From the IMG/VR virus record IMGVR_UViG_3300050821_016564, positions 1-47,215 of that record: a stretch of DNA of 47,215 nt. The stretch is one strand, 5' to 3'. Positions within the stretch are counted from its first letter, which is position 1. Each line of letters starts with the position of its first letter. Shown one piece after another: positions 5,717 to 34,214 of the stretch. Both the position numbers and the translations under genes were made by a program. The stretch comes from a virus. The notes below the pieces were generated by a model. That model made no database searches, had not been told where the DNA came from, and saw only the letters and a list, made by a program, of their open reading frames with translations.

Positions 5717-6763
5717 CTATCCCTCCTCTCCGGGTTCGCGCGGCGGCCGACACGTCGCGTGTCTCACGCCGACAACGCCGTCGGCATCGCTCGTCTCCAC
5801 GCCATCGCTCGTGACCGGCTTCTTGCAGATCAAGCACGCTTCGGCCGGTGGCGGAGTCTTGGCAGAAGCCGCGAGGGGGCCTTCGAGCGGCCCACGCTCG
5901 CGCTGCGCGCGCTGGCGCTCTTGCTTCGAAGCCGGTTCTTGCTTCGAATCTTGCACCGGCATTGCCTTGATTTGGGCCTCGAGAGACGACACGCGGATCG
6001 CGGGGAAAGCCTCGTCGGCCGACGTCTCGCCGTTGGCGATGTTCGTGGAAAGCCCGATGAGCACTTCGAGGTCCTCGAGCAGCACGTCTTGCGCGCTCGG
6101 CTTGCCGAGCCGGGCGAGAATGCGATCGGGGTGGATGCCCATTCTCTGGATCCTCGCGAAGAGTTCTTCCCGACGCGTCGCGAGCGTTTGCGTGTCGCCC
6201 ACGGCGACCTTGCGAATGCGCTGGAAGATAGGATCGATGTACGCGCGCGGGATCACGCGAAAGATCGAATTGCGTAGGGCGATTGACGTCGCGGCGTTGC
6301 CTGTCGTCACGATCATGTCGTCGGAGTAGCGCTTGCCGCTCCTGCCGATGATGCGGCGACGTACGTCGATCGTGATCCGGATATTCTTCTCAAGGTCCCA
6401 GGTGACCCCTTGGGAGACCACTTCGCGCTCTTCGACGTCGATGACGCGAGCCCCCGCGTGGGAGTTTCGATAGGCCGACAGCGCAATTTCGGCGAGGCGG
6501 ACGGAGGGCCCGGTGACGGTTTTTCCGTCGCGAGGGACGGCGTAGATACACGACTCCGCGACCGCGACCGTCACGGTTGCGAGCGATAAGCACTCGCTCA
6601 TGAAGGTCTTGATGCTTCGGGGGTAACGTCGCGCGGCGTCGAGCTGCGCCTCTACTTCCGAACGATTGAGGATGGCGACCGCGCTAATGGTCTCGCGCGA
6701 GATGTCCGTCTCGATCGACAGCTTTGCAATCGCGTCGGTTGCTTCGTCTTGCTCGGGTTGCAT
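5717..6763 (-). CDS. Putative single-strand annealing protein (RecT-like role) with C-terminal zinc motif
   Basis: 348 aa, directly downstream of the exonuclease gene with a 6-bp gap. The core (residues about 40-200) has 'GPSVRLAEIAL', conserved-looking basic strands and 'TGNAATSIALRNSIFRVIP'. This resembles a phage recombination protein found paired with PD-(D/E)xK exonucleases. After a Gln/Pro-rich linker the C-terminus carries C-x2-C ... H-x2-C ('CLICKK', 'RHATC'), probably a zinc ribbon. Annealing activity is inferred from the exonuclease pairing; I do not see a classical RecT, Beta or ERF signature. Confidence 0.65.
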   Translation of the reverse strand: MQPEQDEATDAIAKLSIETDISRETISAVAILNRSEVEAQLDAARRYPRSIKTFMSECLSLATVTVAVAESCIYAVPRDGKTVTGPSVRLAEIALSAYRNSHAGARVIDVEEREVVSQGVTWDLEKNIRITIDVRRRIIGRSGKRYSDDMIVTTGNAATSIALRNSIFRVIPRAYIDPIFQRIRKVAVGDTQTLATRREELFARIQRMGIHPDRILARLGKPSAQDVLLEDLEVLIGLSTNIANGETSADEAFPAIRVSSLEAQIKAMPVQDSKQEPASKQERQRAQRERGPLEGPLAASAKTPPPAEACLICKKPVTSDGVETSDADGVVGVRHATCRPPREPGEEG

Positions 6764-9656: not shown

Positions 9657-9920
9657 ATGGCAGCGCAGCTAGGCAAGTGGGGAACCCTTCGGGGCGCGAC
9701 GATGCTGCGCGCCTACTTCGAGAAAGACGGCAGCCCGACGCAAAGGCAAATCGCTTCGCGTCTCGGTGTGACCGAGGGCACGGTCTACTGGTGGAAGTTT
9801 GGGGTCCGACGGCCAAGCGATTCGTGCCGCCGGGCCCTCCTGCGTATTGCGAACATCCCGACGCAAGCTTGGCTAACCGCCAAGGAGCGGACGCGCGAGA
9901 AGAGGCTGAAGGCAGCGTAG
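9657..9920 (+). CDS. Cro-like helix-turn-helix protein
   Basis: 87 aa. HTH at about residues 27-50: 'PTQRQIASRLGVTEGTVYWW'. The tail 'RRALLRIANIPTQAWL' resembles the N-terminal module of the phage's own small terminase ('ARAALWEHCEIPLAAW', 28408 gene). It diverges from the repressor gene, and no Shine-Dalgarno lies before the ATG. The likely role is early anti-repressor (Cro function) at OR/OL. A general early regulator is the alternative. Confidence 0.75.
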   Translation: MAAQLGKWGTLRGATMLRAYFEKDGSPTQRQIASRLGVTEGTVYWWKFGVRRPSDSCRRALLRIANIPTQAWLTAKERTREKRLKAA

Positions 9921-11034: not shown

Positions 11035-11429
11035 TGATGACCGCCATCGCCATGGCCCCCTACCCGGCGGCCAACGACGTGGGACCGACCGTGAAGCGAG
11101 CGAAGTTGAAGCCACCGGGCCCGAAGCCTGTCACCCTTACAAGTGTAGAAGCCGCGGAGCTCCTCAACGTATCGACGTCGACCTTCCGCGACGTCATCCG
11201 CCCGGACCTTCCCGTCGTCTATATCGGTCGCTCGGTTCGCTTCAACGAAAAGGATGTTTTGCAATGGCTCGAAGATCACACGGCGGTTCCTGGGAATGCT
11301 TCCTCCCGAAGGGGCGCACCATCTACGTCGTCCGCTTCCGCACGCCTTCAGGCCGCGTCACTCGCTCCACGGGCGAAAGCGATTCTCGAAAAGCTGCGCA
11401 AGAAGCCGCGCGCATCTACGCCGACGTAA
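11031..11429 (+). CDS. Excisionase-like MerR/HTH_17 DNA-binding protein
   Basis: 132 aa; ATGA overlap with the previous gene. Residues about 33-85 form a winged HTH of the excisionase/MerR type: 'LTSVEAAELLNVSTSTF', then 'VYIGRSVRFNEKDVLQWLE'. The remaining C-terminal part is Ser/Ala-rich and is read inside the integrase gene (166-bp overlap, other frame). Directly before the integrase it probably acts as recombination directionality factor, bending DNA at attP. A transcription-control role is also possible. Confidence 0.75.
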   Translation: MMMTAIAMAPYPAANDVGPTVKRAKLKPPGPKPVTLTSVEAAELLNVSTSTFRDVIRPDLPVVYIGRSVRFNEKDVLQWLEDHTAVPGNASSRRGAPSTSSASARLQAASLAPRAKAILEKLRKKPRASTPT

Positions 11430-12352
11430 TCTCCGGCCGCGTCGCCACGCGCGCGGCGGTGTCGGCGGATCTCGAGAAGGCCTTCGCGGGGTGGCTGGCT
11501 GAGTACGAAATGACCCACGCTGCGGGCACGACGGAGACCGTGACGGACTACGTGCGCGCGGACTTGCTTCCGTTCTTTCAGACCTTCGACCGGTTCACCG
11601 CCCCGTCGTACAGCGAATACATTCGCAAGCGCATCAAGGAGGTGACGCGCTCGACGCTCCGCAAGGAGCTGTCCGCCTTGCGGATGTTCTGCGCGTGGTG
11701 CGTCGAGCAAGGGGTCTCGGGCTTGCCCCCGATCCCGAGCCTGCCCAAGGCGGGTCACCCTGGGACGCGCGCCCCAAACGCGCGCCGACGTACGGGCAAC
11801 GCGCTCACGCCGGCCGAGATTGCGGAGCTTCTCCTCGCGATGCCCGAGCGCTCGCGGCGCACGGGAGATTTCGTCCGGCCGTTCTTTCAGATCCTTTGGG
11901 AGACGGGCCTGCGACCCTACTCGACCGTGGCGAAGCTCGAGGCGCCGCTTCACTACCGGCGCGGGCAAGACACGCTCTTCATCTCGCGCGAGATCGACAA
12001 GTCACGCTACGAGCGGCGCATCCCCCTGACGGACGCCGCGCGCGAGGCGCTCGATCGAGTGTGTCCGGAGTCGGGCCCGCTCTTTCCGGGCAACCCCGAC
12101 AACATGCGCGATGCGCTCCTGTCGGCGCTCCGCGCGACCGGCATCGACAAGCCGTTCAGCATCTACGACATCCGCCACTCTCGCATTAGTCATCTCGCCA
12201 ATAGCGGGGCGGCGCTTGCAGGCGTCGCGTTCCTCGTCGGGCACAAGCACGTTTCGACGACGGCTCTCTACGTGCACGCCTCGATGGCGGCGGCGGAGTC
12301 CGCGCTCGAAGCCGTCCGCAAGCCTGCGCCTAAGAGGGCTCGTCGTGCGTAG
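11264..12352 (+). CDS. int: Tyrosine-family phage integrase
   Basis: 362 aa. ATG 11264 has AAAAGGA 9 bases upstream, inside the excisionase-like gene. The N-terminal arm/core-binding region covers roughly residues 1-165. The catalytic domain shows 'WETGLRP' (first Arg), a Lys in 'DKSRY', box II 'YDIRHSRISHL' with Tyr in place of the usual first His, 'VGHKHVSTTALYVHA' with His and the Tyr nucleophile, then a basic tail. It should integrate the phage at the tRNA-Leu attachment site 1.6 kb downstream. Only the six-gene array separates int and attP. Confidence 0.93.
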   Translation: MARRSHGGSWECFLPKGRTIYVVRFRTPSGRVTRSTGESDSRKAAQEAARIYADVISGRVATRAAVSADLEKAFAGWLAEYEMTHAAGTTETVTDYVRADLLPFFQTFDRFTAPSYSEYIRKRIKEVTRSTLRKELSALRMFCAWCVEQGVSGLPPIPSLPKAGHPGTRAPNARRRTGNALTPAEIAELLLAMPERSRRTGDFVRPFFQILWETGLRPYSTVAKLEAPLHYRRGQDTLFISREIDKSRYERRIPLTDAAREALDRVCPESGPLFPGNPDNMRDALLSALRATGIDKPFSIYDIRHSRISHLANSGAALAGVAFLVGHKHVSTTALYVHASMAAAESALEAVRKPAPKRARRA

Positions 12353-12569
12353 AAGTCTCGCGTACCGGCAGGGCCTTGGCCTCGCTCTCGAGTTCGTCCG
12401 CAAGTTGTCGGAGAGACGCGACCGCCCTCGCCAACGTCGAGGGCGACGTGTGCACGGCGCAATGGTCATCGACCATGATGATGACGTACTCGTTGGCGTC
12501 GAAGTCGCGCCGGAGCTCCTTCGCGAGGGCGTCCAAGACGTTGTTACGCGGGCAGTCGTGGCCGTTCAC
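12330..12569 (-). CDS. Array paralog 1 (most diverged)
   Basis: 79 aa, GTG start abutting the previous stop. Pattern: helix, strand 'YVIIMVDD', short second strand ending 'HTS', helix 'LARAVASLRQLADELE'. It shares the helix-strand-strand-helix plan of the five genes upstream, ending in the LAD.LE motif. Its last 23 bp overlap the 3' end of int, tail to tail. Distal end of the array transcript. Function unknown. Confidence 0.75.
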   Translation of the reverse strand: MNGHDCPRNNVLDALAKELRRDFDANEYVIIMVDDHCAVHTSPSTLARAVASLRQLADELESEAKALPVRETSTHDEPS

Positions 12570-12797
12570 TTAGCTCACCCGGTCCTTGCCTGCGCGAAGC
12601 TGGGTCTCGAGCCGGTCGGCAAGTTTGCGAAGCAGAGCGGGCAAGTGGGACGAGCGGTTTGGATCCACGGTAGCGATCGCGTGCCCGGTGCCTTCGTCGG
12701 TGCCTTCCACGAAGAGGCAGACGGTCGAACCGTTGGTAGCGGCAAGGATGGCTGCCGCGAGGCCGTTGTATCGCTTTTGCGTGCTGTCGCTGCTCAT
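12570..12797 (-). CDS. Array paralog 2
   Basis: 75 aa, ATG start with AGGGGA just upstream and an 18-bp gap to the previous gene (the others have 0-3). Same plan: helix, 'TVCLFVEG', Gly-rich turn, 'AIATVD', helix 'LPALLRKLADRLE'. Closest by eye to paralog 3, with which it shares the G.G turn, the 'AT.D' strand and the LP.(L/V)LR.LAD end. Confidence 0.8.
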   Translation of the reverse strand: MSSDSTQKRYNGLAAAILAATNGSTVCLFVEGTDEGTGHAIATVDPNRSSHLPALLRKLADRLETQLRAGKDRVS

Positions 12798-12815
12798 GGC
12801 TCCCCTCGTTCTTTC

Positions 12816-13040
12816 CTACCCTCGGCCCATCTTGCCAAGGGCTTCGTTGTCCCGTTCGATTTCATCCGCGAGCTCACGCAGGACTCTCGGCAGATCGGAG
12901 AGGTAGCGCCGGTCGGTCGTGGCGAGACTGCTGCCGTCGCCTCTCGATCCTCCTCCTACAATCGTGAGGACGAGATCCGCGTGAAGCCCCTCGAGAAGCA
13001 TCGTCGTAATCGTGTCGTAGACGCCGGGTCCGATCGCCAT
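12816..13040 (-). CDS. Array paralog 3
   Basis: 74 aa. Helix, strand 'LVLTIVGGG', turn 'RGDG', strand 'SLATTD', helix 'LPRVLRELADEIE'. Short proteins with this 'V..GG..G.G.S.AT.D....LP.(V/L)LRE.AD.IE' pattern occur singly in other phages, as I recall; here it sits in a run of six. The junction to the gene before it is TAG, 3 bases, ATG, with an AAGGGGG ribosome site inside the preceding stop-proximal codons. Confidence 0.8.
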   Translation of the reverse strand: MAIGPGVYDTITTMLLEGLHADLVLTIVGGGSRGDGSSLATTDRRYLSDLPRVLRELADEIERDNEALGKMGRG

Positions 13041-13043
13041 CGC

Positions 13044-13304
13044 CTAGTCCCCCTTGGGCTCCGCGGCCCGTTTCTTTTTCGCGATGTACTCGGCTTCGAT
13101 TTCGCGTCCGGCGTCGCGCAATATTTCTGCGATGGCCAAAGGGCTGTCGAGCGGCGCGTTCGCGTTCACGGTCAGAAATGTTTGCCCGTCGGGGTTCACG
13201 GTGAGGATGACCACAAGCGTTTGCTTGTGGTCGTCCACGATGCGCTGAGCGGTTCGGACGGTGTCGCGGCCGATGGGCGCCGATTCGGGATCGGTCTCGG
13301 GCAT
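13044..13304 (-). CDS. Array paralog 4
   Basis: 86 aa. Longer acidic N-terminus, helix 'RTAQRIVDD', strand 'LVVILTVNPDG', strand 'TFLTVN', helix 'AIAEILRDAGREIE', Lys-rich end. The last codons (P-K-G-D) encode AAGGGGG, the Shine-Dalgarno for paralog 3. Confidence 0.8.
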   Translation of the reverse strand: MPETDPESAPIGRDTVRTAQRIVDDHKQTLVVILTVNPDGQTFLTVNANAPLDSPLAIAEILRDAGREIEAEYIAKKKRAAEPKGD

Positions 13305-13307
13305 GGC

Positions 13308-13562
13308 CTACGCTTCCTCCTTGGAGGCATCCAGGGTGAAGGCCACGGCGGGACATCTCTCGTCCTCGAGCGCTTCAATCGCGTGGCGAAGAAGGGCGGC
13401 GAGGTTCTCCCGCGTGGCAAAGAGCTTTTGGCCCGCGGTGGAGATGGTCACCTGCCCCTCTGCGTCTACGAGGACGAGCACGGAGATTACCGCTTCGTCT
13501 GCCACGCAGATCGCGCCGAGCGCCTTGCCGAGGAGTTCTTGTCTCTCGTCGAGTTTCGCCAT
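13308..13562 (-). CDS. Array paralog 5
   Basis: 84 aa. Helix 'LGKALGAICV', strand 'ISVLVLVDAEG', strand 'VTISTAG', helix 'LAALLRHAIEALE', then a short variable tail. The C-terminal 'SKEEA' codons encode AAGGAGG used by paralog 4 (TAG, GCC, ATG follow). Very similar in layout to paralog 6. Confidence 0.8.
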   Translation of the reverse strand: MAKLDERQELLGKALGAICVADEAVISVLVLVDAEGQVTISTAGQKLFATRENLAALLRHAIEALEDERCPAVAFTLDASKEEA

Positions 13563-13565
13563 GGC

Positions 13566-13820
13566 CTAGCTCTTCTCCTTGGGGGCAACGCAGACCCCGA
13601 CCGTTCCGTCAGGTCTCGTGGTCTTCACTTCGTGAGCGGCGCAGTCGAGCATGGCGCCGATGGCTTCGGGAAAGTTGTAGTTCGGCAGGCCCGCGGTGAA
13701 GACCGAGACCTCCCCCTCCTTGCTGGCCAAGACGAGGACGGCGACGGCGGCATCTTGCCCCATCAAGATCGTCGACAGGATTTTGATGACCGTCTCGCTA
13801 CGCTCGTCGTCTTTTCCCAT
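13566..13820 (-). CDS. Array paralog 6 (promoter-proximal)
   Basis: 84 aa. Helix 'VIKILSTILM', strand 'VAVLVLASKEG', strand 'VSVFTAG', helix 'IGAMLDCAAHEV', tail 'APKEKS' whose codons encode AAGGAG for the next gene. It heads the array and starts about 110 bp from attP, transcribed away from it. No signal peptide, membrane segment, catalytic motif or metal site is visible in any paralog, so a binding or scaffold role is more likely than enzymatic. Confidence 0.8.
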   Translation of the reverse strand: MGKDDERSETVIKILSTILMGQDAAVAVLVLASKEGEVSVFTAGLPNYNFPEAIGAMLDCAAHEVKTTRPDGTVGVCVAPKEKS

Positions 13821-13892
13821 GGCTCCGCTCTACCCCTTTGCCGTCCGTTCGTCCGCCTGGTGTCCCCGGGTTTCTCGCGGCGCCCCCCTAGC

Positions 13893-13912
13893 GGGATACG
13901 CTCTGGGATACG
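13893..13912 (+). repeat. Candidate integrase arm sites, left
   Basis: GGGATACG occurs at 13893-13900 and 13905-13912, a direct pair spaced 12 bp. Similar copies lie on the other side of the attP core at 14069 and 14078. This is the arrangement expected for arm-type integrase sites. Confidence 0.5.
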
Positions 13913-13928
13913 CAGGGGGTTTTCGGGG

Positions 13929-13983
13929 TGCGAACGGCGGGAATTGAACCCGCAAGCCGAGTTATCGGCGCCAGAACCTGAAG
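13929..13983 (-). other. attP: attP core: 3' half of a tRNA-Leu(CAG)
   Basis: On the minus strand 55 bases match the 3' half of a class II tRNA. They comprise an anticodon loop reading TTCAGGT (CAG), 3' anticodon stem TCTGG, a long variable arm with stem GCCGA/TCGGC, T-arm GCGGG-TTCAATT-CCCGC, acceptor 3' strand CGTTCGC and A73. The bases upstream do not complete the anticodon stem, so no functional tRNA exists here. This is the signature of a phage that integrates into the anticodon loop and restores the host tRNA-Leu. Confidence 0.87.
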
Positions 13984-14002
13984 ATGGCTCACGCCTGCAC
14001 GG

Positions 14003-14085
14003 TTCTCGGTATTTCTCGGTAAAAGCTGCGATTCTGGTAGCGCCAGAAGGCGCGAAACGGCGCGGCGCGGGATACGCGGGACACG
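14003..14085 (+). repeat. attP right arm: repeats and hairpin
   Basis: TTCTCGGTA is repeated at 14003-14011 and 14013-14021 (10-bp step, candidate excisionase or accessory sites). A GCGCC-AGAA-GGCGC hairpin follows at 14040-14053. GGGATACG at 14069-14076 and GGGACACG at 14078-14085 match the left-arm motif. No gene is seen in 13821-14143. Confidence 0.45.
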
Positions 14086-14143
14086 CAAAACGCGAGCGTG
14101 ACCATGGGTCGGCGCTCACGAAAACAGACCCGCCGGTGTGCCT

Positions 14144-14359
14144 ATGACCGCGCCCGTACTCGAATGGCGACGCGCTCCGCGCCAGCACGTAGCCCATCTG
14201 TGGCGTGACGGGATCCAGGTCTGTTGGCACCCCAATTCGGGAGGGACCATCGTCGAGTATTTCCCCGTTCCGCTCACCTCCTTTGGAGAGCCGTACGGCC
14301 ATACCTGCGCGTACTGCCGAAAGCACTTTCGACGCGCGAAGAAAGAGCAGGCCGCATGA
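14144..14359 (+). CDS. Small Cys/His protein at start of replication operon
   Basis: 71 aa from ATG 14144 (a GTG two codons earlier is possible). 'HTCAYCRKHF' near the C-terminus plus upstream Cys/His may bind zinc. 4-bp overlap with the replication gene. First gene to the right of attP. Function unknown. Confidence 0.65.
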   Translation: MTAPVLEWRRAPRQHVAHLWRDGIQVCWHPNSGGTIVEYFPVPLTSFGEPYGHTCAYCRKHFRRAKKEQAA

Positions 14360-15087
14360 CACTCGAAGATGAGCGCCTCGCTCTTGCACAAGCCGCCCTC
14401 GAACTTGTCGACAGGATCCTCGACTTCGCCGGCGTGCCGCTGTCTCCGTCGCCCGTTCGCAAGGAGCCCCTCTCGAACGCAGAGAAGTGCCGACGGAGGA
14501 GAGAGGCTAAGCGACACCAAAGCGACACCGCGGACGGTGTCGCGACACCGAAAGCGACACCGAGCGACACCGGGCGGGGGGTAGGGGGGACTCTCTCTCT
14601 TATCTCGGATTTTTCAGAGAAAAAGAGAGAGTCTGAGGTCTTCGCGCGCGAGCCGAGCGACACCGGCGCGACACCGAAAGCGACACCGGCGACACCAGAA
14701 ACGACACCGCTCGGTGTCGCGCCCGATGGCGAACGCTACGTGCGTCTGACCGATGCAATCACGCCAGAGCTCACCGCGGCTGCGCAGCTTGCGACCGTGC
14801 AAGATATCGCGGCGGCGTGGGCGAAGTTCACCGGACACCACGCCGACAAATGGATCCACGTCGCGGGCCAGTGGCAAGTGTGGTGCGTCCGGGAGGCGAA
14901 GAGAGAGCGCGTAGAGCGCGAGAAGCTACGCGCGATTGGCATAGTCAAAGCTCCCGGCGCGATCGATTACGAGGCGCAAGCGCGGGCGAATGCACGAGCG
15001 AGGAAGCAGGCAGCCGAGCGGCCGAAGGAGCCCCCGCTCACGCCGGAAGTTATGGCGCAAACGCTCCGGGAGATCGGACTCAAGTGA
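14356..15087 (+). CDS. Putative replication initiator carrying the origin
   Basis: 243 aa from ATG 14356 (ATGA overlap). The N-terminal helix is followed by a basic patch 'EKCRRRREAKRH'. Residues about 52-125 are a low-complexity S/T/A/P/D region produced by DNA repeats. The C-terminal half (about 130-210) has a helical block 'IAAAWAKFTGHH...W..VAGQWQVWC', like the C-terminal part of phage initiators that meet helicase loaders, then a basic tail. An origin embedded mid-gene is the lambda O arrangement. The initiator role is inferred from origin placement and operon position; no helicase or primase motif is present. Confidence 0.65.
   Translation: MTLEDERLALAQAALELVDRILDFAGVPLSPSPVRKEPLSNAEKCRRRREAKRHQSDTADGVATPKATPSDTGRGVGGTLSLISDFSEKKRESEVFAREPSDTGATPKATPATPETTPLGVAPDGERYVRLTDAITPELTAAAQLATVQDIAAAWAKFTGHHADKWIHVAGQWQVWCVREAKRERVEREKLRAIGIVKAPGAIDYEAQARANARARKQAAERPKEPPLTPEVMAQTLREIGLK
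14511..14720 (+). other. ori: Iteron-type replication origin inside the initiator gene
   Basis: GCGACACC occurs nine times directly (14511, 14522, 14542, 14554, 14564, 14657, 14668, 14680, 14689), once with one change (14701) and twice inverted (14536, 14713). Most neighbours are 9-12 bp apart, one helical turn. Between the two clusters lies a segment of CT runs, AT-richer bases and GA runs (14590-14633) with inverted repeat GACTCTCTC/GAGAGAGTC, a likely unwinding element. The iteron is read in different codon frames in different copies (S-D-T, A-T-P, R-H-Q), so the DNA motif, not the peptide, is conserved. Confidence 0.8.
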
Positions 15088-18075: not shown

Positions 18076-18200
18076 GGTGGATTGACGATCACTGGCTGGA
18101 CCTCGCCTTCGCTTGTTTCATCGTCGTGCAGGTGTGCGGGCTCCTAAGCCAGATCCTGCATGCCTGTTTCCCTTCACTCCAAGGAGCTCCCCCCCCATGA
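18072..18200 (+). CDS. 42-aa single-span membrane protein
   Basis: GTGA overlap at the start and ATGA at the end. One hydrophobic helix ('LAFACFIVVQVCGLLSQIL') with three Cys, then a Pro-rich end. It sits between the methyltransferase and a glycosyltransferase and may anchor the cassette enzymes at the membrane. Function unknown. Confidence 0.55.
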   Translation: MRWIDDHWLDLAFACFIVVQVCGLLSQILHACFPSLQGAPPP

Positions 18201-18997
18201 CGTTCTCTCTCTCGATTTCGCATACTCCGTGGCGGCCTGACCGCGTGGTCGCTCTTCGCGAGATGATGATGGTGCTCACGCCGTTGGCGCACGGCATCCC
18301 GTTCTTCCTGAACGACGTTGACTATCGCGGCAAGGATTGGCAGCAAGCGAAAGTGACATGGGCGCTCGACCAATGGCGATGGCATCTCTCCACGTCCGCG
18401 ACGCATCACGTGCTCATGACGGACGACTTGGCGATCGCGCCGGGCTTTTGGATGGCCCTCGACGCGATGGTGACCGCATGCCCGAACGGAGCGATCGGTC
18501 TTCTATCGAATCACCCCGCGGGACCTCGGCTCGTGGCGGAGGGCTATCGCTGGTACCGCTGCGGATGTTGGATCGTCGGGCCTGCCTACGTCGTTCCACG
18601 TGAAACGCTCGATGGCTTCGTGAAGTGGTACGAGGCGCTTCCCGACGGCCCGCACAATCAAGAAGGCACGAAGGCGTACCGCAACGACGACTCAAGCTTG
18701 AACGAATTTCTGTCGCAGACGCGTCGGAACTCGTATCACCCCCTTCCCACGATCGTGGAACATCGTGGCGATCTACCGAGCACCGTCGGCCACGGAGACA
18801 AGTACTCACGTGAGCGCCTGAGCTGGCGGCAGGTGCAGAAGACCTACGACGACCCCGCCGAACCTAAGGGCTTTGCTTGGAAGGCAATGGCGGTGGCCTT
18901 CGATCTTGTGGCGATGGCGAGGCCGAACTATTGGCGCGAGAAAGGTGGCCCCGAAGAGGCACCGTTGCTTAGCGTTGGCAATCCGGAGGACGCATGA
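18197..18997 (+). CDS. Glycosyltransferase-like protein 1
   Basis: 266 aa from ATG 18197. An N-terminal strand is followed by 'HVLMTDDLAIAPGFWMAL', where T-D-D takes the place of a DxD metal/nucleotide-sugar site. Later come 'GAIGLLSNHPAG', 'CGCWIVGPAYVVPRE', 'NDDSSLNEFL' and 'PLPTIVEH'. The order matches GT25-like phage glycosyltransferases and the paralog at 20060 ('LQDDCLVPPNFW', 'PIPTIVKH'). It likely transfers a sugar onto a surface or virion glycan. Donor and acceptor unknown. Confidence 0.75.
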   Translation: MTFSLSISHTPWRPDRVVALREMMMVLTPLAHGIPFFLNDVDYRGKDWQQAKVTWALDQWRWHLSTSATHHVLMTDDLAIAPGFWMALDAMVTACPNGAIGLLSNHPAGPRLVAEGYRWYRCGCWIVGPAYVVPRETLDGFVKWYEALPDGPHNQEGTKAYRNDDSSLNEFLSQTRRNSYHPLPTIVEHRGDLPSTVGHGDKYSRERLSWRQVQKTYDDPAEPKGFAWKAMAVAFDLVAMARPNYWREKGGPEEAPLLSVGNPEDA

Positions 18998-19170: not shown

Positions 19171-20063
19171 TGCGGGTGGCAGTAACCGGCGGCGCCGGCT
19201 TCGTGGGTAGCGCCATCGTCCGCTCGCTTCTCGCGGCTGGCCATCACGTCCTCGTCGTCGACGATCTCTCGACCGGCAAGGTTGGAAACATCGAAGGGCT
19301 CGCGTGCGACTTTCACCACGTGGACGCCGGAAGCGCGCTGTATTCGAGCTGCGAAGCTGTCGTCCACGCCGCGGCCTATCCCGACGTCTCGCAGAACTGG
19401 AAGCATCCACGTGAGAGAGCGCGTCAGTGGCAGAGCAATGCGGAGCTCACCCGCCGTGTCCTCGAGCGCGAGATTCCGCTTGGCTGCCGCTTCGTGCTGC
19501 TCTCCACCTGTTCGGTCTACGGCGGCGGCCGTGTCGACGAGAGCGCCATCCCACGGGCGACCTCGCCTTACGCCGCCTCGAAGATCGCGGCCGAAGCTCT
19601 CGTCTCCGCATATACCGAGGCGGGGCGAATCGACGGCGTGACGCTACGCCTCGTGAACGTCGTGGGCCCACGCTATGGCCACGGGCACATCGCGGACTTC
19701 GTGCGAATGGCGCGCGAGGGGCATGTGCACGCCCTGGACGACGGGCGCAAAGCGAAGAGCTTCGTGCACGCGGACGACGTCGCCGCCTGCGTCCGCGACT
19801 GCATCGAGTCCCCCCAGTGCGGCCCGACTGGCCGTATCGGCAACGTGTCAAGCGCCGTGTGTTGGAGCTGGCGCGACACTGTCGGCGTCATGCGTTCGAT
19901 GCGCCCCGATCTAGCCTTTGAGCTCACGCACGAGCAGAGGCGTTCGGGGTGGATTGGCGACCCTGACGAACTGGTCGTCAGCTCGCATGTCTTCGATGAG
20001 CAGTCGACAAGCGTTGCGGTCGGTGTTGGGCAAGCGCTCGAGTCTCTCGGGTGGATGAAGTGA
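19170..20063 (+). CDS. NAD-dependent epimerase/dehydratase (extended SDR)
   Basis: 297 aa from ATG 19170 (GTG 19161 or 19167 also in frame). N-terminal 'VAVTGGAGFVGSAIV' is the T-G-x-x-G-x-x-G NAD site, with 'VVDDLSTGK' at strand two. The catalytic Ser region is 'LLSTCSVYGGG' and the Y-x-x-x-K motif is 'YAASK'. 'RLVNVVGPRYG' and 'FVHADDVA' are typical of UDP-sugar 4-epimerases and relatives. It probably makes the nucleotide sugar used by neighbouring transferases. Exact substrate not readable. Confidence 0.9.
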   Translation: MRVAVTGGAGFVGSAIVRSLLAAGHHVLVVDDLSTGKVGNIEGLACDFHHVDAGSALYSSCEAVVHAAAYPDVSQNWKHPRERARQWQSNAELTRRVLEREIPLGCRFVLLSTCSVYGGGRVDESAIPRATSPYAASKIAAEALVSAYTEAGRIDGVTLRLVNVVGPRYGHGHIADFVRMAREGHVHALDDGRKAKSFVHADDVAACVRDCIESPQCGPTGRIGNVSSAVCWSWRDTVGVMRSMRPDLAFELTHEQRRSGWIGDPDELVVSSHVFDEQSTSVAVGVGQALESLGWMK

Positions 20064-20743
20064 TCACGATCGCCCTGGCGGTGCCTCATGCCGCCTGGAT
20101 TCCCGAGCGTGTAGCGAGCATGACGCGGCTCCGATGGCAGCTCGGGATCGGCGAGAACGTCGATGAGCTGCCGGAGGGCTTGGCTCACTACCGAGCCTTC
20201 ACGGAGCGCGAGGCGAATCACGAGTGGAGCGAGAGGCTGTGGACCTGGCTCGCCACTGGCGACCAGACGCATTGCCTACAGCTCCAAGACGACTGCCTTG
20301 TTCCCCCGAATTTCTGGGCCGCGCTGAGCGCGCTCCTCGCCGCGTTCCCTCGCCAGGTCATTTGCTTCCAGTCGGTGCATGTCGCGGCCCGAGCTCTGGC
20401 GGAAGAAGGAGAGCGTGGGTACACGACGAGCGAGCACTTGATTGGCGTCGCTTATTGCCTCCCGCGCGAGCTCCTCGTCGAGTTCCTCGGGTGGCGGCGA
20501 ACGAAGCTCAAGCCAGGGGCTATCGAGGCCATCTCGGAGGATACGCTCATGGCTGCGTGGTGCCTTGCGACCGGTCACCGCGTCTTCCACCCGATCCCAA
20601 CGATCGTCAAGCACGACGTCTCCAAGGCGAGTACGTACGGCAACGACGACCACGAGGCGCGCGTCTCGCCTGTGCCATGGGATGTCGAGGGCGCTCCGTG
20701 GACGCTCACCGACTTGGAGCGCGAGGAGTTTTGGCGCCAATGA
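20060..20743 (+). CDS. Glycosyltransferase-like protein 2 (paralog of 18197 gene)
   Basis: 227 aa. GTG 20060 gives the usual 4-bp overlap; GTG 20051 adds three residues. Strand 'ITIALAVPH', 'LQLQDDCLVPPNFWAAL' (D-D-C site), 'GVAYCLPRELL', 'EDTLMAAWC', 'PIPTIVKHDVSKAST'. It shares order and motifs with glycosyltransferase-like protein 1, so the two probably arose by duplication within this lineage and diverged in specificity. Confidence 0.75.
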   Translation: MITIALAVPHAAWIPERVASMTRLRWQLGIGENVDELPEGLAHYRAFTEREANHEWSERLWTWLATGDQTHCLQLQDDCLVPPNFWAALSALLAAFPRQVICFQSVHVAARALAEEGERGYTTSEHLIGVAYCLPRELLVEFLGWRRTKLKPGAIEAISEDTLMAAWCLATGHRVFHPIPTIVKHDVSKASTYGNDDHEARVSPVPWDVEGAPWTLTDLEREEFWRQ

Positions 20744-24581: not shown

Positions 24582-24610
24582 AGAGATTTCTTCTTTCTCT
24601 TTTCTCTTCG

Positions 24611-24683
24611 AGGCGCGGACGGGATTCGAACCCGCCTTGTGCCGGTTTTGCAAACCGGTGCCTAACCGCTTGGCTACCGCGCC
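24611..24683 (-). tRNA. trnC: tRNA-Cys (GCA)
   Basis: 73 nt. Acceptor GGCGCGG pairs with CCGCGCC, D-arm GCC...GGC, anticodon stem CCGGT/ACCGG with loop TTGCAAA (anticodon GCA), six-base variable loop, T-arm GCGGG-TTCGAAT-CCCGT, discriminator T. CCA is not encoded. It lies among minus-strand protein genes and overlaps the stop region of the gene upstream by 10 bp, so it must be processed from a shared transcript. It may support the many Cys-rich small phage proteins. Confidence 0.93.
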
Positions 24684-27281: not shown

Positions 27282-27548
27282 GTGTCGACCTTTTGGCTGT
27301 CCTTCTGCGACGCGGATCGCCCCGAAGGTTCGCAATTCCTTGGCGCATGCTTCGTCCAAGGCGAACACATTGGCGAGGCAATCCGCAACGCGTGGAAGCT
27401 TGGATGCAATCCGGGGGGCGAAGTCGCGTTTCATCCGGTGCCCTCCGTTTGTGAAGAACTAATCCGACCTGAGTGGCGCGACCGACTCTTGAGCCGCGCC
27501 GAATGCGAAGACATAGACCGCGCGCTCGACGCGGCATTGGGGAGCTGA
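27282..27548 (+). CDS. Conserved small phage protein ('TFWLSFCDADRPEG')
   Basis: 88 aa from GTG 27282. 'TFWLSFCDADRPEGSQFLG', 'AW.LG.NPGGEVAFH' and a helical end match a short protein widely shared among phages, as I recall, without known role. Part of the + operon 26201-28167. Confidence 0.7.
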   Translation: MSTFWLSFCDADRPEGSQFLGACFVQGEHIGEAIRNAWKLGCNPGGEVAFHPVPSVCEELIRPEWRDRLLSRAECEDIDRALDAALGS

Positions 27549-27549
27549 C

Positions 27550-27942
27550 ATGGAATTTAGGGATGGGCGGTACTGCCTCGCAGTCTTTTTCATCTACGGC
27601 AAAGAGCATCGGGACTGGATGGCATCAATATGGCGGGACGAGGAGGGGCCGTGGTGCATCGAGTATCGCTTCCGCTATTACGCCGAAGACGATGGGAAGC
27701 GAGACTCGTTCGATGGGAGAGACCGCAAGAGCTGGTACGACCTCAAGGTGCCGCGTGAAGAGCCGGAAGCGGAGCTCATTCGCAAGATAACGCTCGTCGC
27801 CGAGGAGCTCGTGCGAGGCGGCTACAACGATCGATACGACCTTGTGATGATTCGAAGCGACCGAGGTGTTGACGGTATCAAGGCCATCGCTGCGCGCCCG
27901 TGGGCTCATGTGAAAGAGCTCGTTCACAAGGGAAACGCGTGA
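27550..27942 (+). CDS. Unrecognised 130-aa protein
   Basis: ATG 27550, one base after the previous stop. Aromatic-rich N-terminal beta region ('CLAVFFIYG', 'WCIEYRFRYYAEDDG'), then charged helices. Resembles short phage proteins with 'YRFRYY' strands that I cannot name. Confidence 0.7.
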   Translation: MEFRDGRYCLAVFFIYGKEHRDWMASIWRDEEGPWCIEYRFRYYAEDDGKRDSFDGRDRKSWYDLKVPREEPEAELIRKITLVAEELVRGGYNDRYDLVMIRSDRGVDGIKAIAARPWAHVKELVHKGNA

Positions 27943-27966
27943 GCGTAGCGGTGGTATGATGCCGTC

Positions 27967-28167
27967 ATGGCGCAGCCCTCACCGACGTTATCGTTGCCAC
28001 GCGAGCAAGCAGACGCCGCGACGCTCCGGCGCCTGGCTGTCGCCCACTCGGTCGACCCACGATCGATCATGCGGGAGCTCCGGGCCCCGGGCTCCGTACG
28101 TGGGATGGCCGGGCATCGTGCGCGCGCGGCGGTCGCTGATCTGCTCACCGGCGGTGATGCGCGATAA
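27967..28167 (+). CDS. Small HTH protein before late leader
   Basis: 66 aa. 'TLRRLAVAHSVDPRSIMREL' forms a helix-turn-helix-like unit followed by 'VRGMAGHRARAAVADLL'. It lies 43 bp upstream of the predicted late promoter -35, the place of late regulators in many phages. It is too small for a Q-type antiterminator; possibly a transcriptional regulator. Confidence 0.65.
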   Translation: MAQPSPTLSLPREQADAATLRRLAVAHSVDPRSIMRELRAPGSVRGMAGHRARAAVADLLTGGDAR

Positions 28168-28209
28168 GCCGCGGCTGGCTCTCACGGCTGCGTGTTTGCA
28201 CGAATTGGG

Positions 28210-28239
28210 TTGACGCGTCACGGGGCATGGGCTTGCAAT
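28210..28239 (+). promoter_or_regulatory. Predicted late promoter
   Basis: -35 TTGACG (28210-28215), 18-base spacing, -10 TGCAAT (28234-28239); TTGCAA with 17-base spacing is the alternative. Start of transcription near 28246. It has the same -35 as the two early promoters but no GTAG operator. Confidence 0.5.
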
Positions 28240-28245
28240 CTCGCT

Positions 28246-28323
28246 AGGGGGCGGTTGTCGATGGCGTGCGGTGCCCTGCGGGCTATTGGCTCCGCCCCCC
28301 CTCAAACAGTGCAGGGGGCTTTT
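28246..28323 (+). terminator. Structured late leader with terminator
   Basis: GGGGGCGG (28247-28254) can pair perfectly with CCGCCCCC (28292-28299), enclosing a GCCC-TGC-GGGC hairpin (28273-28283). Alternatively GCCCCC (28294-28299) pairs with GGGGGC (28314-28319), followed by TTTT. The two folds share bases 28294-28299 and exclude each other, as in attenuators or antitermination leaders. 28324-28407 shows no further gene. Confidence 0.55.
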
Positions 28324-28407
28324 CAGTCCTTCGGGAGACGTTTCTAACTCACGCGATCCCCCGGGCGGTTTTGGGTTGAGCGGCGCGCGGCCGTAGCCTG
28401 AGCGGCG

Positions 28408-28992
28408 GTGGACTCCGAAGGAATGCGGCTACTTGCCGCGCTTTGCAGTGACGGGCGCGGCCGAGCGGTCTCCCGGAAGACAGGGATCAGCCAAGCAACG
28501 CTGCGCGGTCTGCTTACCGGCTCGGTGCCCAAGGAGAGAGCGCGAGCGGCGCTCTGGGAGCACTGCGAGATTCCCCTTGCCGCGTGGGACGCGCCCCTGG
28601 CGCCAGGTGACGGCGTCGTGACCGCTCACTTTCGCGGGATGCCCCCTCCTGCGATGGCGGCCCCAAAAGAGGAAGCCGTCGCCGCTGACGACGAAGCCGA
28701 CCTCTCCGCGCTCGGGCAGATTCGAGAGACGCTGAGCGAGCTCCGCAAGGACCGCGACCGTGTGAGGCTCGACCCGAACGCCACCCCCCGCGACCGGGCC
28801 GCCATCGCCAACGCTCTTGCGTCGGCCACACGGCTCCTTGCCAAGGTCGACGGCGCGGGCTCTCTCACCATGTCGCAGATTCTTCGCTCGGAACATTGGG
28901 TCAAGCTTCGGGATGGCGTTCTCGGCGTGCTGTCCGCCCATCCGGCGGCGCTGTCCGACGTGAGCGACTTCCTCCGAAGCATGGCCGAATGA
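28408..28992 (+). CDS. terS: Terminase small subunit
   Basis: 194 aa from GTG 28408. N-terminal HTH: 'GRAVSRKTGISQATLRGLLTG', then 'ARAALWEHCEIPLAAW'. A linker rich in Pro/Ala/Asp precedes a helical oligomerisation region ('LGQIRETLSELRKDRDRV', 'RAAIANALASATRLLAKV') and a C-terminal segment likely to contact TerL. It recognises phage DNA to start packaging. Directly upstream of and overlapping the large subunit gene. Confidence 0.8.
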   Translation: MDSEGMRLLAALCSDGRGRAVSRKTGISQATLRGLLTGSVPKERARAALWEHCEIPLAAWDAPLAPGDGVVTAHFRGMPPPAMAAPKEEAVAADDEADLSALGQIRETLSELRKDRDRVRLDPNATPRDRAAIANALASATRLLAKVDGAGSLTMSQILRSEHWVKLRDGVLGVLSAHPAALSDVSDFLRSMAE

Positions 28993-30587
28993 AGCACCGC
29001 CTCACTCGCGCTCGCACCCTCTATGCGGACATGTACTCCGCGGCGACGCGCGTTCTCGCCGCGGTGCTCGCTGGGCAATACCCGCTGACGCAATACCAGA
29101 CGGACCCCGTTCGGTACGTGCGCGAGAGATTGCGCGTCAAGGTGATGATGCCTCACCAGGCGGCGATCCTTGTGGCGCTAGCGCGTGGGGTGGCCGGCCT
29201 GGCGCATCCGAGGGTTGCAGTGCGGAGTGGTCAAAAGAGCGGGAAAACAGCCGTGGCGGTATGGGCGGCCCTATGGTTCTACGAGTGCTTCCCCGGCGCC
29301 CAAGTGCTCATGAGCGCTGCGATCGAAGCGCAGACACGCAACGTCCTCTGGAAGGAGCTCGGCGACACCCTTCGGCGGGCGCGTCTCGGCGGCGGCCACA
29401 TTGACGGCGACCTGTCCCGCTCGCCCGCGACGGGGCTTCTCAGCTCGGACGGTTCGAGGTCGATCAAGGGCGTAAGCGGTCGAGATATCGAGGCGCTAGC
29501 CGGCGTGTCCGGGCGCCAGTTGATGATCATCGACGAAGCCTCTCACTTGCCCGAGAGCAAGGCCCAGGTCTTCGCCGGAAATCAAATGGGGGGCGGCGGG
29601 GCGCAGTTCATGATCTCGAACCCTACGGCGAACTCGGGCCCCTTCTACGACGCCTTCCACGTGATGTCCCAATGGTGGCAGACGTTCCACGTCGACTGCG
29701 AAGCTGTCGCCGACTGGCAAGTCGCCAATGACGTCCGGATTCCCTTCACCACCTCGCGCGAGAAGATCGAAGAGGCGCGCGCCATGTACGGCGAGGATTC
29801 GCCGTTTTGGTCGTGGCGAATCAAGGGGAACTTCCTCCGCAACGAGACGGGCCGGGCCATGCCCATGGTACGCATCGAAGCGGCGATCGCTCGGTGGGCG
29901 GAAGCGGAAGCGGATGGGGAGCTCACGATCGGGTGGGACATCGCCGGTGACGGGATCGACGCCGATGAAAACGCGTGGGCGATCCGACGGGGGCGCAAGT
30001 GCATTGCGGTCTATCGCCGGCGCGCTCTTTCGGAAGAGGCGGCGCTCGCCGAGACGTACGGACTTCTGCAGATGTATCGCCGGGATGGTGAGGTCCCTCG
30101 CGTCATGGTGGACGCGGAAGGCCCGATCGGCAGCGCGTACTACGGGCGCCTCCGGGGCGAGGCCGAGCATCGCCAGCAACACTCGCCGGGCTCGCTCTTC
30201 GAGGTCTACGGCATACGCGCCTCCTCGCGGTTCGTGCGCGACAAGACGAAGTTTGATCGCGTGCGCGATGAGCTGATTTGGACGCTCTCGCAATGGCTCA
30301 TTGATGGGGCGATCCCCAACGATTCGAAGCTTCAATCCGAGCTGTACGAACCCAAGTGGGAGCCGAACTCCAACAACAAGCTTGTTGCCACGCCGAAACA
30401 CCTAATCCGCGAGAAGCTCGGTCGCTCGCCGGACTCGCTCGATGCGCTCGCTCTTTCGGTCCGTGGCCCCACGATCATTCTCGAAGAAGCCAGCGCGCCA
30501 CCCCAGCAAACGGCGATCGACGTCTATCAAATGCCCGCCGAGCAAGCCTTCGACCCTTACGCGTCGATCGATTGGGCCAGGGGCTAG
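28989..30587 (+). CDS. terL: Terminase large subunit
   Basis: 532 aa from ATG 28989 (ATGA overlap). ATPase: Walker A 'SGQKSGKTAVA' near residue 78, Walker B 'QLMIIDEASHL' near 177. Nuclease (RNase H fold): 'TIGWDIAGDGIDADENAW' near 315, a second acidic site 'VMVDAEGPIG', and a late 'SPDSLDALALS'. Translocates DNA into proheads and cuts it. The stop shares the palindrome CTAG with the stop of the convergent membrane gene. Confidence 0.95.
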   Translation: MKHRLTRARTLYADMYSAATRVLAAVLAGQYPLTQYQTDPVRYVRERLRVKVMMPHQAAILVALARGVAGLAHPRVAVRSGQKSGKTAVAVWAALWFYECFPGAQVLMSAAIEAQTRNVLWKELGDTLRRARLGGGHIDGDLSRSPATGLLSSDGSRSIKGVSGRDIEALAGVSGRQLMIIDEASHLPESKAQVFAGNQMGGGGAQFMISNPTANSGPFYDAFHVMSQWWQTFHVDCEAVADWQVANDVRIPFTTSREKIEEARAMYGEDSPFWSWRIKGNFLRNETGRAMPMVRIEAAIARWAEAEADGELTIGWDIAGDGIDADENAWAIRRGRKCIAVYRRRALSEEAALAETYGLLQMYRRDGEVPRVMVDAEGPIGSAYYGRLRGEAEHRQQHSPGSLFEVYGIRASSRFVRDKTKFDRVRDELIWTLSQWLIDGAIPNDSKLQSELYEPKWEPNSNNKLVATPKHLIREKLGRSPDSLDALALSVRGPTIILEEASAPPQQTAIDVYQMPAEQAFDPYASIDWARG

Positions 30588-30748
30588 ATATGCACCGTGT
30601 GTCCGGCGAAGAGATACACGAGCCAGAAGAGGCCGCAGAAGAAGGCGAGCCGTCCGATTTCGGACACCTTGCCGTTTGCGCTCAACGCGTAAACAAGAGC
30701 GCCAAGCATGGCCACGACGAACGGTACGAGAGCTTCGGCGACATTCAT
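30584..30748 (-). CDS. 54-aa two-span membrane protein
   Basis: ATG 30748. Two hydrophobic helices: 'ALVPFVVAMLGALVYAL' and 'RLAFFCGLFWLVYLFAG', joined by a short polar loop. As I recall, similar small proteins sit next to terminase or portal genes of many temperate phages. Last gene of a three-gene minus-strand unit. Holin-like or unknown membrane function. Confidence 0.7.
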   Translation of the reverse strand: MNVAEALVPFVVAMLGALVYALSANGKVSEIGRLAFFCGLFWLVYLFAGHTVHI

Positions 30749-30758
30749 GCGGGGCAGC

Positions 30759-30923
30759 CTACCGCAGACGGAAAGGTGGATACTCCTTCTCGTAGATGCG
30801 GGCCATGCGCTTTTCGAAACGAAACAAGAACGCGGGGTCAAGGCGAGCGCCGCGCTGGTCTGGGAATGCGAGAAGGCGTCGTAACTCTTTCGCGAGAGTC
30901 CTCGCTAGTTGCCGCTCGATCAC
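30759..30923 (-). CDS. 54-aa basic helical protein
   Basis: GTG 30923 overlaps the upstream stop (GTGA). Strongly basic helix ('LAKELRRLLAF') and an aromatic/basic end ('FRFEKRMARIYEKEYP'). Clear coupling and composition support a real gene. Function unknown. Confidence 0.65.
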   Translation of the reverse strand: MIERQLARTLAKELRRLLAFPDQRGARLDPAFLFRFEKRMARIYEKEYPPFRLR

Positions 30924-31099
30924 TGCTCGACCTCGTCCGGAAGTTTGATGCCCAGTTTGCGCGCGGCTTCGACAACCGCCTCACGGCTATTGGCTCCGCC
31001 GTCGCCCTTGAGCACCGCGGCGACTGTCCTCGAATCGCGATGCGCCTCGGCTGCGATTCGTAAAATCTCCGCATTCTTGAGGCGAGGGCGCTGCAACAT
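30920..31099 (-). CDS. Small HTH regulator
   Basis: 59 aa from ATG 31099; GTG 31117 is the alternative. 'AEILRIAAEAHRDSRTVAAVLKG' is a helix-turn-helix of the LacI-like/short-regulator type, followed by 'AVVEAARKLGI'. It heads the minus unit between terminase and portal and may control its own operon. Confidence 0.65.
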   Translation of the reverse strand: MLQRPRLKNAEILRIAAEAHRDSRTVAAVLKGDGGANSREAVVEAARKLGIKLPDEVEQ

Positions 31100-31178
31100 T
31101 GAGCAAGTCTGCCGCACGCTTGGGAAAAGGTCTAGGCGCGCTCGCGAGTAAGAGGAGTTCTCTCGTATTGCGTAGCGT

Positions 31179-32510
31179 GTGGCGTTCTCGGACCTCGTCG
31201 CGGCTTTGCTTGGCGTCTCCGCCTATGCGCCGCGTAAAGGCTATGGCCCAGAGATAGACGATCGGTCCGTAGAGCGGATACGCGAGACACTCGGCGGCAA
31301 CCTCGCACTACAGCCGACAACGCAAATCCGCTGGTACCTGGCGGAGCTCGAGTCCGCGCAGTTCCAGGCCGACGCGGGGGACATGATGCCCGCCGCTCAG
31401 CTCTGGCGAGCCATGCGCCGCGACGGCGTGATTACCGGGTTGATGGGGACGCTCACGTCAGGGCTCGTCCGCCTTCCGAAGAAGTTCTACGGCTCGGCCG
31501 AGACCGTATCGGCGCTGAAAGCGCGCAACGGCTCGAGGTCGGTATTCGACGACATGTGCCCGCCGAGCGAGCTCGCACTCTTGGCGGCCGACGGCAAGGC
31601 CCTCGGTGTCGCCGTCGCCGAACTCGTGCCCGTCGCTGGGCGTGACTTCCCCGTGCTCGTGCGCCTCGAGCCCGAGTTCTTGCGATATCGGTGGATCGAA
31701 AATCGTTGGTACTACAACAGTGTCGCGGGGCTCTTGCCGATCGAGCCGGGCGACGGTCGGTGGGTATTGCACACCCCGGGCGGGCGCATTGCTCCTTGGC
31801 TCGCTGGGCTTTGGCCAGCTCTCGGTCGGAGCTTCATCAACAAGGAACACGCGCTCCTTCATCGCTCGAACTACTCAGCGAAGCTCGCGAACCCCGCCCG
31901 CGTTGCCTACGCGCCGCAAGGGGCCGACGAGAAGGAGCGCGATCGCTTTTTCAAGCGCCTCATGGCTTGGGGCATCAATACCGTCTTCGCGCTCCCTCCG
32001 GGATGGGAGGTCAAGCTTCTCGAGTCGAAGGGCGAAGGCACGAAGATCTTCCAAGAGGAGATCGACACCTGCGACCGCGAGATCGCCATCTCGATCGCCG
32101 GTCAGGTGGTCACCGTGGATGGGGGCGCCGGCTTCCAGAACTCGGACATCCACCGCACGATCCGATCGGACATCGTCAAGGACGTGGCCGACCAACTTGC
32201 CTACACGGTAAATACTCAAGTTGTCCCGCCCTATGTGGGCAAGCGGTGGGGCTCGTCGGCCATCGCCGAGGCCGCGTGCCTCGAATGGGATATTTCGCGT
32301 CCCAAAGACCTCAAGGCCGAGGCGGAGTCACTCGGTAGCGCGGCGGAAGCCATCGACAGCCTGCGAGATGTTCTCGCGAAGTACGGGAGGGAGCTCGACG
32401 TCGACGAGCTCACTACGCGGTTTGCGATCCCAATCAAGAATGACATCGACGGCGACGGTGTGCCCGATGCGTCCGGCGAGGCCTCACCGGAGGGCGCGGT
32501 GCTCCAATGA
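31179..32510 (+). CDS. Portal protein, Mu gp29-like (DUF935)
   Basis: 443 aa from GTG 31179. 'QLWRAMRRDGVITGLMGTLTSGLVRLP', 'ALGVAVAELVPV', 'RLEPEFLRYRW', 'WVLHTPGG' and a C-terminal helical region with 'DLKAEAESLG' follow the DUF935 order. It forms the dodecameric DNA channel at one capsid vertex. Unlike Mu, no gp30 (F-like minor head) gene follows; the protease comes next with a 4-bp overlap. Confidence 0.9.
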   Translation: MAFSDLVAALLGVSAYAPRKGYGPEIDDRSVERIRETLGGNLALQPTTQIRWYLAELESAQFQADAGDMMPAAQLWRAMRRDGVITGLMGTLTSGLVRLPKKFYGSAETVSALKARNGSRSVFDDMCPPSELALLAADGKALGVAVAELVPVAGRDFPVLVRLEPEFLRYRWIENRWYYNSVAGLLPIEPGDGRWVLHTPGGRIAPWLAGLWPALGRSFINKEHALLHRSNYSAKLANPARVAYAPQGADEKERDRFFKRLMAWGINTVFALPPGWEVKLLESKGEGTKIFQEEIDTCDREIAISIAGQVVTVDGGAGFQNSDIHRTIRSDIVKDVADQLAYTVNTQVVPPYVGKRWGSSAIAEAACLEWDISRPKDLKAEAESLGSAAEAIDSLRDVLAKYGRELDVDELTTRFAIPIKNDIDGDGVPDASGEASPEGAVLQ

Positions 32511-33778
32511 CGCTCGTTCGCGTTCATTCGACGGCGCTGCTCGCTGGCAATGATGGCGTCGAGCGCGCGCCGTCCGGCGAACCGATTGCCTTTCGAATCT
32601 GGAAGGCAGGCGCCAATCCGACCGACAAGGGCGTCCACATTCTCACAGAGAACGCGGCGCAGCGTCTCTTGGCCGAACAGGCCATTCGGGGAAACCTCTA
32701 CTCGATCGATATCGATCATCTTTCGCTGAACGAAAAGGCGCCGCCCGAAAGCCACAAGGCGGCGGGGTTCTTTTCGATTGAGGGCCGACCCTCGGCCGAA
32801 GGCACGGAGATTTGGGCCACGACGGTCCAATGGGTCGACTGGGTACGCGCGGGGCTGCAAAAGAGCCCGCCAGAGTGGCGTTACCACTCGCCCGCCTACG
32901 ACACGAAAAAGAGCACCGGCGAAATCATGTCGCTGCTCAATATCGCTCTCACCAATAACCCGGCCACGTGGTCCGTCACGCAATTAGCCATTCGGGAGAA
33001 AGCAATCATGAATTACTCGGCAATCGCCGCGGCGCTCTTTGGCGACGACGACGACGCAAAGAAAGAGGCTCGCTCCGCGATCGCCAAGATGAGCGAGTCC
33101 GAAACGAAGGCGTGGAAGGCAGTTCAAAAGGCGGCCTTCGACATGGGCGACGACAAGAAGGACGAGCCCAAGAAGGAAGAGGCGAAGGCGTCTGAGGGCG
33201 ACGACAAGAAGGACGAGCCCAAGAAAGAGGAGACCACCAAAGCGGCCGAGGACGCGCCTGACGAAGAGGCGGCGAAGGCCGCTATCGCGGCGACACGCGA
33301 GCTCGCTCAGACGGTGGCAGCCCAAGGCAAGGAAATCGAGACCTTCAAGAAGGAGCGAGAGGCCAGCGAGCGCGCCTCCGTCCTTGCGACGCGCAGCGAC
33401 CTCCCCAAGGAGCTCGTCGCGACCCTTTCGAAGATGCCACTCGCGATGATGCGCGAGACCATCGCGAGCATACCCGCGGCCGTCGTGGATCCGGCCGCAG
33501 CCGACAAGGTCACCGCAACGCGTGGCGCTCATGGTGACGCGAGCGCGTACGGCTCGCAGCGCACGGCCCGCTTGCCCCCCAAAGAGCACGAGGAGCTTCG
33601 CGAGCGGATGACTGGCGAAGGGCGAGCTCGAACGATCGGGTGGGACCCCGAACACAAGAGCGACCTCGTGTTCCCTCAGATCGACAAGTTCGAGGCGCGT
33701 CGGATTCTCGCCGCGCGCGCCGCGACTGGACGTGACGGCCCGGCCGTGAACCCGGCGACGAAAGGTGGTGCTCGATGA
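32507..33778 (+). CDS. Prohead protease/scaffold, Mu gpI-like
   Basis: 423 aa. The N-terminal ~165 residues are the protease part: 'FRIWKAGANPTDKGVHILTENAAQ', 'YSIDIDHLSLNEKAPPESHKAAGFF', 'WVDWVRAGLQKSPPEWRYHSPAY' and 'LLNIALTNNPATW', the order of Mu gpI-type peptidases. Asp/His in 'DIDHLS' and the Ser in 'HSPAY' are catalytic candidates. The rest is a charged helical scaffold with a twice-repeated 'GDDKKDEPKKEE' block. Self-removal during capsid maturation is expected. Confidence 0.85.
   Translation: MTLVRVHSTALLAGNDGVERAPSGEPIAFRIWKAGANPTDKGVHILTENAAQRLLAEQAIRGNLYSIDIDHLSLNEKAPPESHKAAGFFSIEGRPSAEGTEIWATTVQWVDWVRAGLQKSPPEWRYHSPAYDTKKSTGEIMSLLNIALTNNPATWSVTQLAIREKAIMNYSAIAAALFGDDDDAKKEARSAIAKMSESETKAWKAVQKAAFDMGDDKKDEPKKEEAKASEGDDKKDEPKKEETTKAAEDAPDEEAAKAAIAATRELAQTVAAQGKEIETFKKEREASERASVLATRSDLPKELVATLSKMPLAMMRETIASIPAAVVDPAAADKVTATRGAHGDASAYGSQRTARLPPKEHEELRERMTGEGRARTIGWDPEHKSDLVFPQIDKFEARRILAARAATGRDGPAVNPATKGGAR
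33008..33778 (+). CDS. Nested scaffold protein (Mu gpZ-like internal start)
   Basis: ATG 33008 lies in the protease frame with GGGAGAAAG 7-8 bases upstream and opens a 256-aa product, exactly where the protease domain ends. Mu makes scaffold gpZ from an internal start of gene I in the same way. Charged, low-complexity, coiled-coil-prone sequence supports a scaffold. Internal initiation is inferred. Confidence 0.6.
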   Translation: MNYSAIAAALFGDDDDAKKEARSAIAKMSESETKAWKAVQKAAFDMGDDKKDEPKKEEAKASEGDDKKDEPKKEETTKAAEDAPDEEAAKAAIAATRELAQTVAAQGKEIETFKKEREASERASVLATRSDLPKELVATLSKMPLAMMRETIASIPAAVVDPAAADKVTATRGAHGDASAYGSQRTARLPPKEHEELRERMTGEGRARTIGWDPEHKSDLVFPQIDKFEARRILAARAATGRDGPAVNPATKGGAR

Positions 33779-34212: not shown

Positions 34213-34214
34213 TC

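Follow-up and report, generated by a model that had tools for sequence, protein, structure and literature searches.

The window analysed here, a virus record of 47,215 nucleotides (IMGVR_UViG_3300050821_016564 of IMG/VR, positions 1 to 47,215), contains half of a tRNA gene flanked by short repeats, and the question is whether this region is the attP of an integrating phage. Terminase, portal and tail sheath genes were recognised in the window with PHROG. According to our in silico analysis, the region is very probably an attP, belonging to a contractile-tailed temperate phage whose integration into the anticodon loop of a tRNA-Leu(CAG) gene of the host regenerates this gene. The features concerned are the following, with the basis of each in brackets:

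11264-12352, plus strand: tyrosine integrase of 362 aa (PF00589, PHROG 1, alignment)
12570-13820, minus strand: five tandem small ORFs of 74-86 aa, between int and attP (ORF calling, blastp)
13893-13913, plus strand: P' arm pair, GGGATACGC twice, starting at 13893 and 13905 (repeat search)
13982-13929, minus strand: tRNA-Leu(CAG) 3' half, forming the block of identity to the predicted attB (descriptor, ARAGORN, sequence)
13976-13982, minus strand: predicted overlap/crossover, the anticodon loop TTCAGGT (sequence and comparison with the related contig L002)
14003-14040, plus strand: candidate Xis/accessory sites, TTCTCGGTA at 14003 and 14013 and the shorter TTCTGGTA at 14032 (position)
14069-14086, plus strand: P arm pair, GGGATACGC at 14069 and GGGACACGC at 14078 (repeat search)

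The minus-strand letters of 13982-13929 read TTCAGGT TCTGG C GCCGA TAAC TCGGC TT GCGGG TTCAATT CCCGC CGTTCGC A. They form 54 nt from U32 to A73 (55 counting C31), in the order CAG anticodon loop (UUCAGGU), 3' strand of the anticodon stem, spacer, variable arm (5-bp stem, 4-nt loop), T arm (5-bp stem, canonical loop UUCAAUU), 3' acceptor strand (CGUUCGC) and discriminator A73. The first-pass annotation had described 55 bases of a class II tRNA from anticodon loop to discriminator, including the long variable arm, and this stretch was indeed found. A descriptor of class II 3' halves, requiring a loop, a T arm, a 7+1 acceptor and four or more base pairs in the variable-arm stem, returned it as the sole such half in the whole window, while 3 of 200 shuffled windows showed any such half anywhere. 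On the attP alone, ARAGORN made no tRNA call; with the half joined to a generic 5' half it returned tRNA-Leu(cag), which indicates that the 5' half is missing. The Rfam search of the attP gave no match at the curated threshold. The loop is flanked by CCATC and TCTGG, of which the outer CCA/TGG is symmetric. Since pairing of the host stem would require CCAGA where the phage has CCATC, identity with the host should start at the loop. A complete tRNA-Cys(GCA) gene is present at 24610-24683 on the minus strand.

The arm-like repeats and the 10-bp-step pair that had been reported around this half are also present. The arm repeats have the consensus GGGAYACGC and flank the core as one pair per side; all four copies point in the same direction, and the centres of the 9 bases lie at -82, -70, +94 and +103 from the loop centre (13979). 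Beyond these four copies, the exact consensus occurs only at 6938 in the 47 kb, and 15 copies are found in the window within one mismatch on both strands. The attP region holds 4 copies versus 0.06 expected per 194 bp. Among 1488 other window positions, 4 reached at least four copies in a 2+2 arrangement, and none of 1500 local shuffles did. Near the start of int, where Cluster J phages carry such copies, none was found within one mismatch.

In lambda-type systems, Xis or bending proteins bind between the core and the right arm. The two copies of TTCTCGGTA and the shorter third copy TTCTGGTA lie in this interval, and their position makes them candidate Xis/accessory sites. Exact 9-mer pairs at a step of 10 occur at only three places in the window, which is unusual and not decisive. 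No separate Xis gene was identified; g17 (9657-9920) encodes a weak HTH protein. Further on, at 14510-14720, many GCGACACC-type repeats accompany the start of ORF 14356-15087.

The integrase matches PF00589 (E 6.8e-14) and the PHROG 1 integrase (1.5e-38). In a three-sequence alignment, R217, K246, R304, H327 and Y336 aligned as catalytic residues and were invariant, giving the set R-K-(H/Y)xxR-H-Y, with the usual His of HxxR replaced by Tyr. Arm-binding domains are expected to have a beta-beta-beta-alpha fold. The first 55 residues of the integrase were modelled in this way in a two-sequence model, with pLDDT around 80 for residues 11-50; confidence is fair for this N-terminal domain only and low for the model as a whole. 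Residues 1-62 folded alone reached a pLDDT of 58, and no Pfam arm domain was detected in the integrase. The best PDB match of the low-confidence whole model was lambda Int (1z1g, E 7.7e-4). These fold data would support an arm-binding integrase and are not decisive.

A single relative of this integrase, 41% identical, was found in IMG/VR, on contig L002 (IMGVR_UViG_3300010366_000023). Alignment and single-sequence scans added no further relatives. L002 also carries the 3' half of a tRNA-Leu(CAG), about 50 bp past the int stop (6116) and on the strand opposite to int. Its core reads TTCAGGT TCCTG TGGGACTAACTCCCGT AAGGG TTCAAAT CCCTT CTTTCGC A, a gene sequence different from that of the window. 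The arm repeats of L002, GGGGGGAGT at 6130, 6141 and 6314 (-80, -69 and +104), differ in sequence from those of the window and lie at nearly identical offsets. The first-pass annotation would have been contradicted by relatives of this integrase in other sites, and the one relative available points to the same isoacceptor. Judged from these sequences, the two integrases, diverged to 41% identity, keep their target isoacceptor and near-equal arm spacing. The two phages differ in that the attP of L002 directly follows int with zero small genes between them, whereas 1.6 kb separate int and attP in the window. A tRNA-Thr(TGT) was called in L002 at 6352-6421 (plus), just past the attP and about 140 bp from the core. 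In L005 (MW202476), whose integrase is 37% identical, no recognisable class II tRNA half was seen in the stretch examined, which neither supports nor refutes the reading.

The tRNA half could also be what is left of a phage-borne tRNA-Leu gene that decayed by losing its 5' half and has no role in integration. Fragments of prokaryotic tRNA genes are known, and this phage does carry a full tRNA-Cys elsewhere. We consider this explanation very improbable: the gene is broken exactly at its anticodon loop and the remaining stems are all perfect, arm pairs lie on the flanks, and L002 has by its int the 3' half of a different tRNA-Leu(CAG) gene, no less perfect. Just as improbable is a tRNA-dependent lysogeny, in which recombination is confined to a short core and the phage makes up for the destroyed host tRNA with one of its own of that isotype; such systems are known in actinobacteriophages, one of them with tRNA-Leu-CAA (PMC10865867). 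Their cores measure about 8-17 bp, whereas the block described here spans 54 nt and reaches the discriminator, and the window encodes only tRNA-Cys and no full tRNA-Leu that could act as replacement. In lambda-type systems, arm sites are found on attP and not on attB. That the half would be the attB of another element such as a satellite, with the phage's own attP elsewhere, would agree with the lack of an observed integrated copy, but is the least credible option, as arm sites, which mark attP, are present and L002 shows a site of this kind alongside its int.

The attP reading gains from a second contig. We scanned IMG/VR for the left arm pair of the window alone (GCGTATCCC-N(2-4)-GCGTATCCC) and retrieved a single contig, L009. 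Its pair, at 5998 and 6009, lies about 90 bp past the stop of ORF 7293-6106 (minus), which matches the PHROG 1 integrase (8.5e-19). A second arm pair, GCGTAACC at 6150 and 6161, overlaps the 3' end of this int, and midway between the pairs is a palindromic core, CACGTTGCGGGTCGCGCAGCGTG, with arms at -75, -64, +77 and +88 from its centre. Direct profile comparison revealed no significant similarity between the L009 integrase and that of the window. Together with the palindromic, non-tRNA core, this indicates that the same arms go with an integrase that has diverged and with another core. A collection of this size could contain 18 specified bases by chance, yet the position by an integrase and the second pair make this unlikely. 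L009 5998-6169 is in itself an attP-like phage site with the arm sequence of the window and a palindromic non-tRNA core.

Based on the L002 comparison and the arm-pair scan, the attP reading is well supported, and anticodon-loop integration with regeneration of the gene is likely. We propose that the N-terminal domain of the integrase probably binds the paired GGGAYACGC arm sites, while the core-binding and catalytic domains probably bind the anticodon stem-loop sequence. Strand exchange would take place within the approximately 7 bp of the anticodon loop of the host tRNA-Leu(CAG). The phage 3' half would then rebuild an intact tRNA gene at one junction, the one adjoining int and the five small genes, while the 3' half native to the host would be displaced to the opposite junction. 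In this scheme, DNA binding by the integrase, the point of crossover, the host and its actual attB are inferred, and attB, attL and attR are predictions. Against the attP reading stand the lack of a bacterial tRNA-Leu match and of an integrated copy, the 1.6 kb to int and a stem that is only partly symmetric. No integrated copy was seen, and no lysogen or provirus of this phage was found. The original proposal of integration at this site is supported by the anatomy, by the integrase, tRNA half and arms of L002 and by the arm-pair scan, except for its expectation that the host could be named.

That expectation was that a search for tRNA-Leu(CAG) genes with this 3' half, especially in Myxococcota, would name the host. 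Neither the exact 54-mer nor a relaxed tRNA pattern, unconstrained in the variable arm and in part of the T loop, had any match in 84,980 GTDB r220 species genomes (one genome per species), and both patterns require the anticodon stem, T stem and acceptor to be unchanged, which means that a host with even one difference there would be missed. Myxococcota are accordingly neither supported nor excluded as hosts. Both patterns also gave 0 matches in other IMG/VR contigs. The attP of a mycobacteriophage can carry five differences in 43 bp (PMC10865867). The host of the phage may belong to those not yet sampled, or drift may have altered the half. With identity to a host tRNA gene unmatched, the attP claim rests on structure and relatives. 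Comparison of the attP region with phages gave no match, and comparison of the tRNA half with plasmids and phages gave partial tRNA similarity only. TerL relatives were limited to distant phages of mixed hosts and an 8461-bp contig identical to the window. The latter comes from a different IMG metagenome (3300021181) and agrees with window 27466-35926 at 100% identity along its 8461 bp; the same phage was thus apparently assembled twice. Within ORF 32507-33778, which adjoins the portal gene, we noticed a 37-bp direct repeat (33145-33181 and 33196-33232) that is 95% identical and has a 51-nt step.

The five small ORFs between int and attP share their orientation with the tRNA half. Blastp showed two paralogous pairs among them (g20/g21, E 1e-6; g23/g24, E 5e-9), and none of the five has a Pfam family or a convincing PHROG match. 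After the predicted integration, the regenerated tRNA-Leu would be immediately upstream of them and in line with them, its 3' end about 110 bp away. A scan of 12300-14400 detected no sigma-70 promoter, a single promoter type that may not be that of the host, and no minus-strand terminator. Integration might switch on the five genes through the host promoter of the regenerated tRNA-Leu, a hypothesis that we hold to be rather unlikely. If true, lysogeny would be read out as expression of a small-gene cassette. Paralogous ORFs also occur elsewhere in the window, at 18197-18997 and 20051-20743, within a gene run at 16.9-21.7 kb whose genes resemble methyltransferase, epimerase and sugar-transfer types.

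The attP reading marks the phage as temperate and provides a concrete attB prediction for tracing its host once genomes of the lineage appear. It also provides an att/int set with arm sites that are found again next to the divergent integrase of another phage. Since sites of this kind are well known, the finding has little general importance. As in phage lambda, whose Int is the best PDB fold match of our weak model, arm sites flank the core; the lambda attB lies outside tRNA genes, and its arm sequences and spacing differ from those of the window. Anticodon-centred sites account for 2083 of 3919 islands in Islander (PMC4383910). These islands share with the window the anticodon-centred crossover and a 3' tDNA fragment in the element, although they were mapped as integrated whereas only a free attP is seen here. 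Cluster J mycobacteriophages (Omega, BAKA) use the tRNA-Leu attB-11, with arm sites in two pairs and a 44-bp core that has its left end in the anticodon loop, and integration of an int-attP plasmid was shown by PCR (PMC3706429). They are siphoviruses of Mycobacterium, in contrast to the contractile-tailed phage described here, and differ from it in the anticodon (CAA versus CAG), the arm consensus (TGCATAC versus GGGATACGC) and the distance from int to attP (about 100 bp versus 1.6 kb). Cluster J and the window nevertheless share an attP located 3' of a tyrosine int, a core made of a tRNA-Leu 3' half from the anticodon loop, direct-repeat arm pairs on the flanks (P1/P2 and P3/P4 in Cluster J) and the rebuilding of the tRNA, which is predicted in the window.
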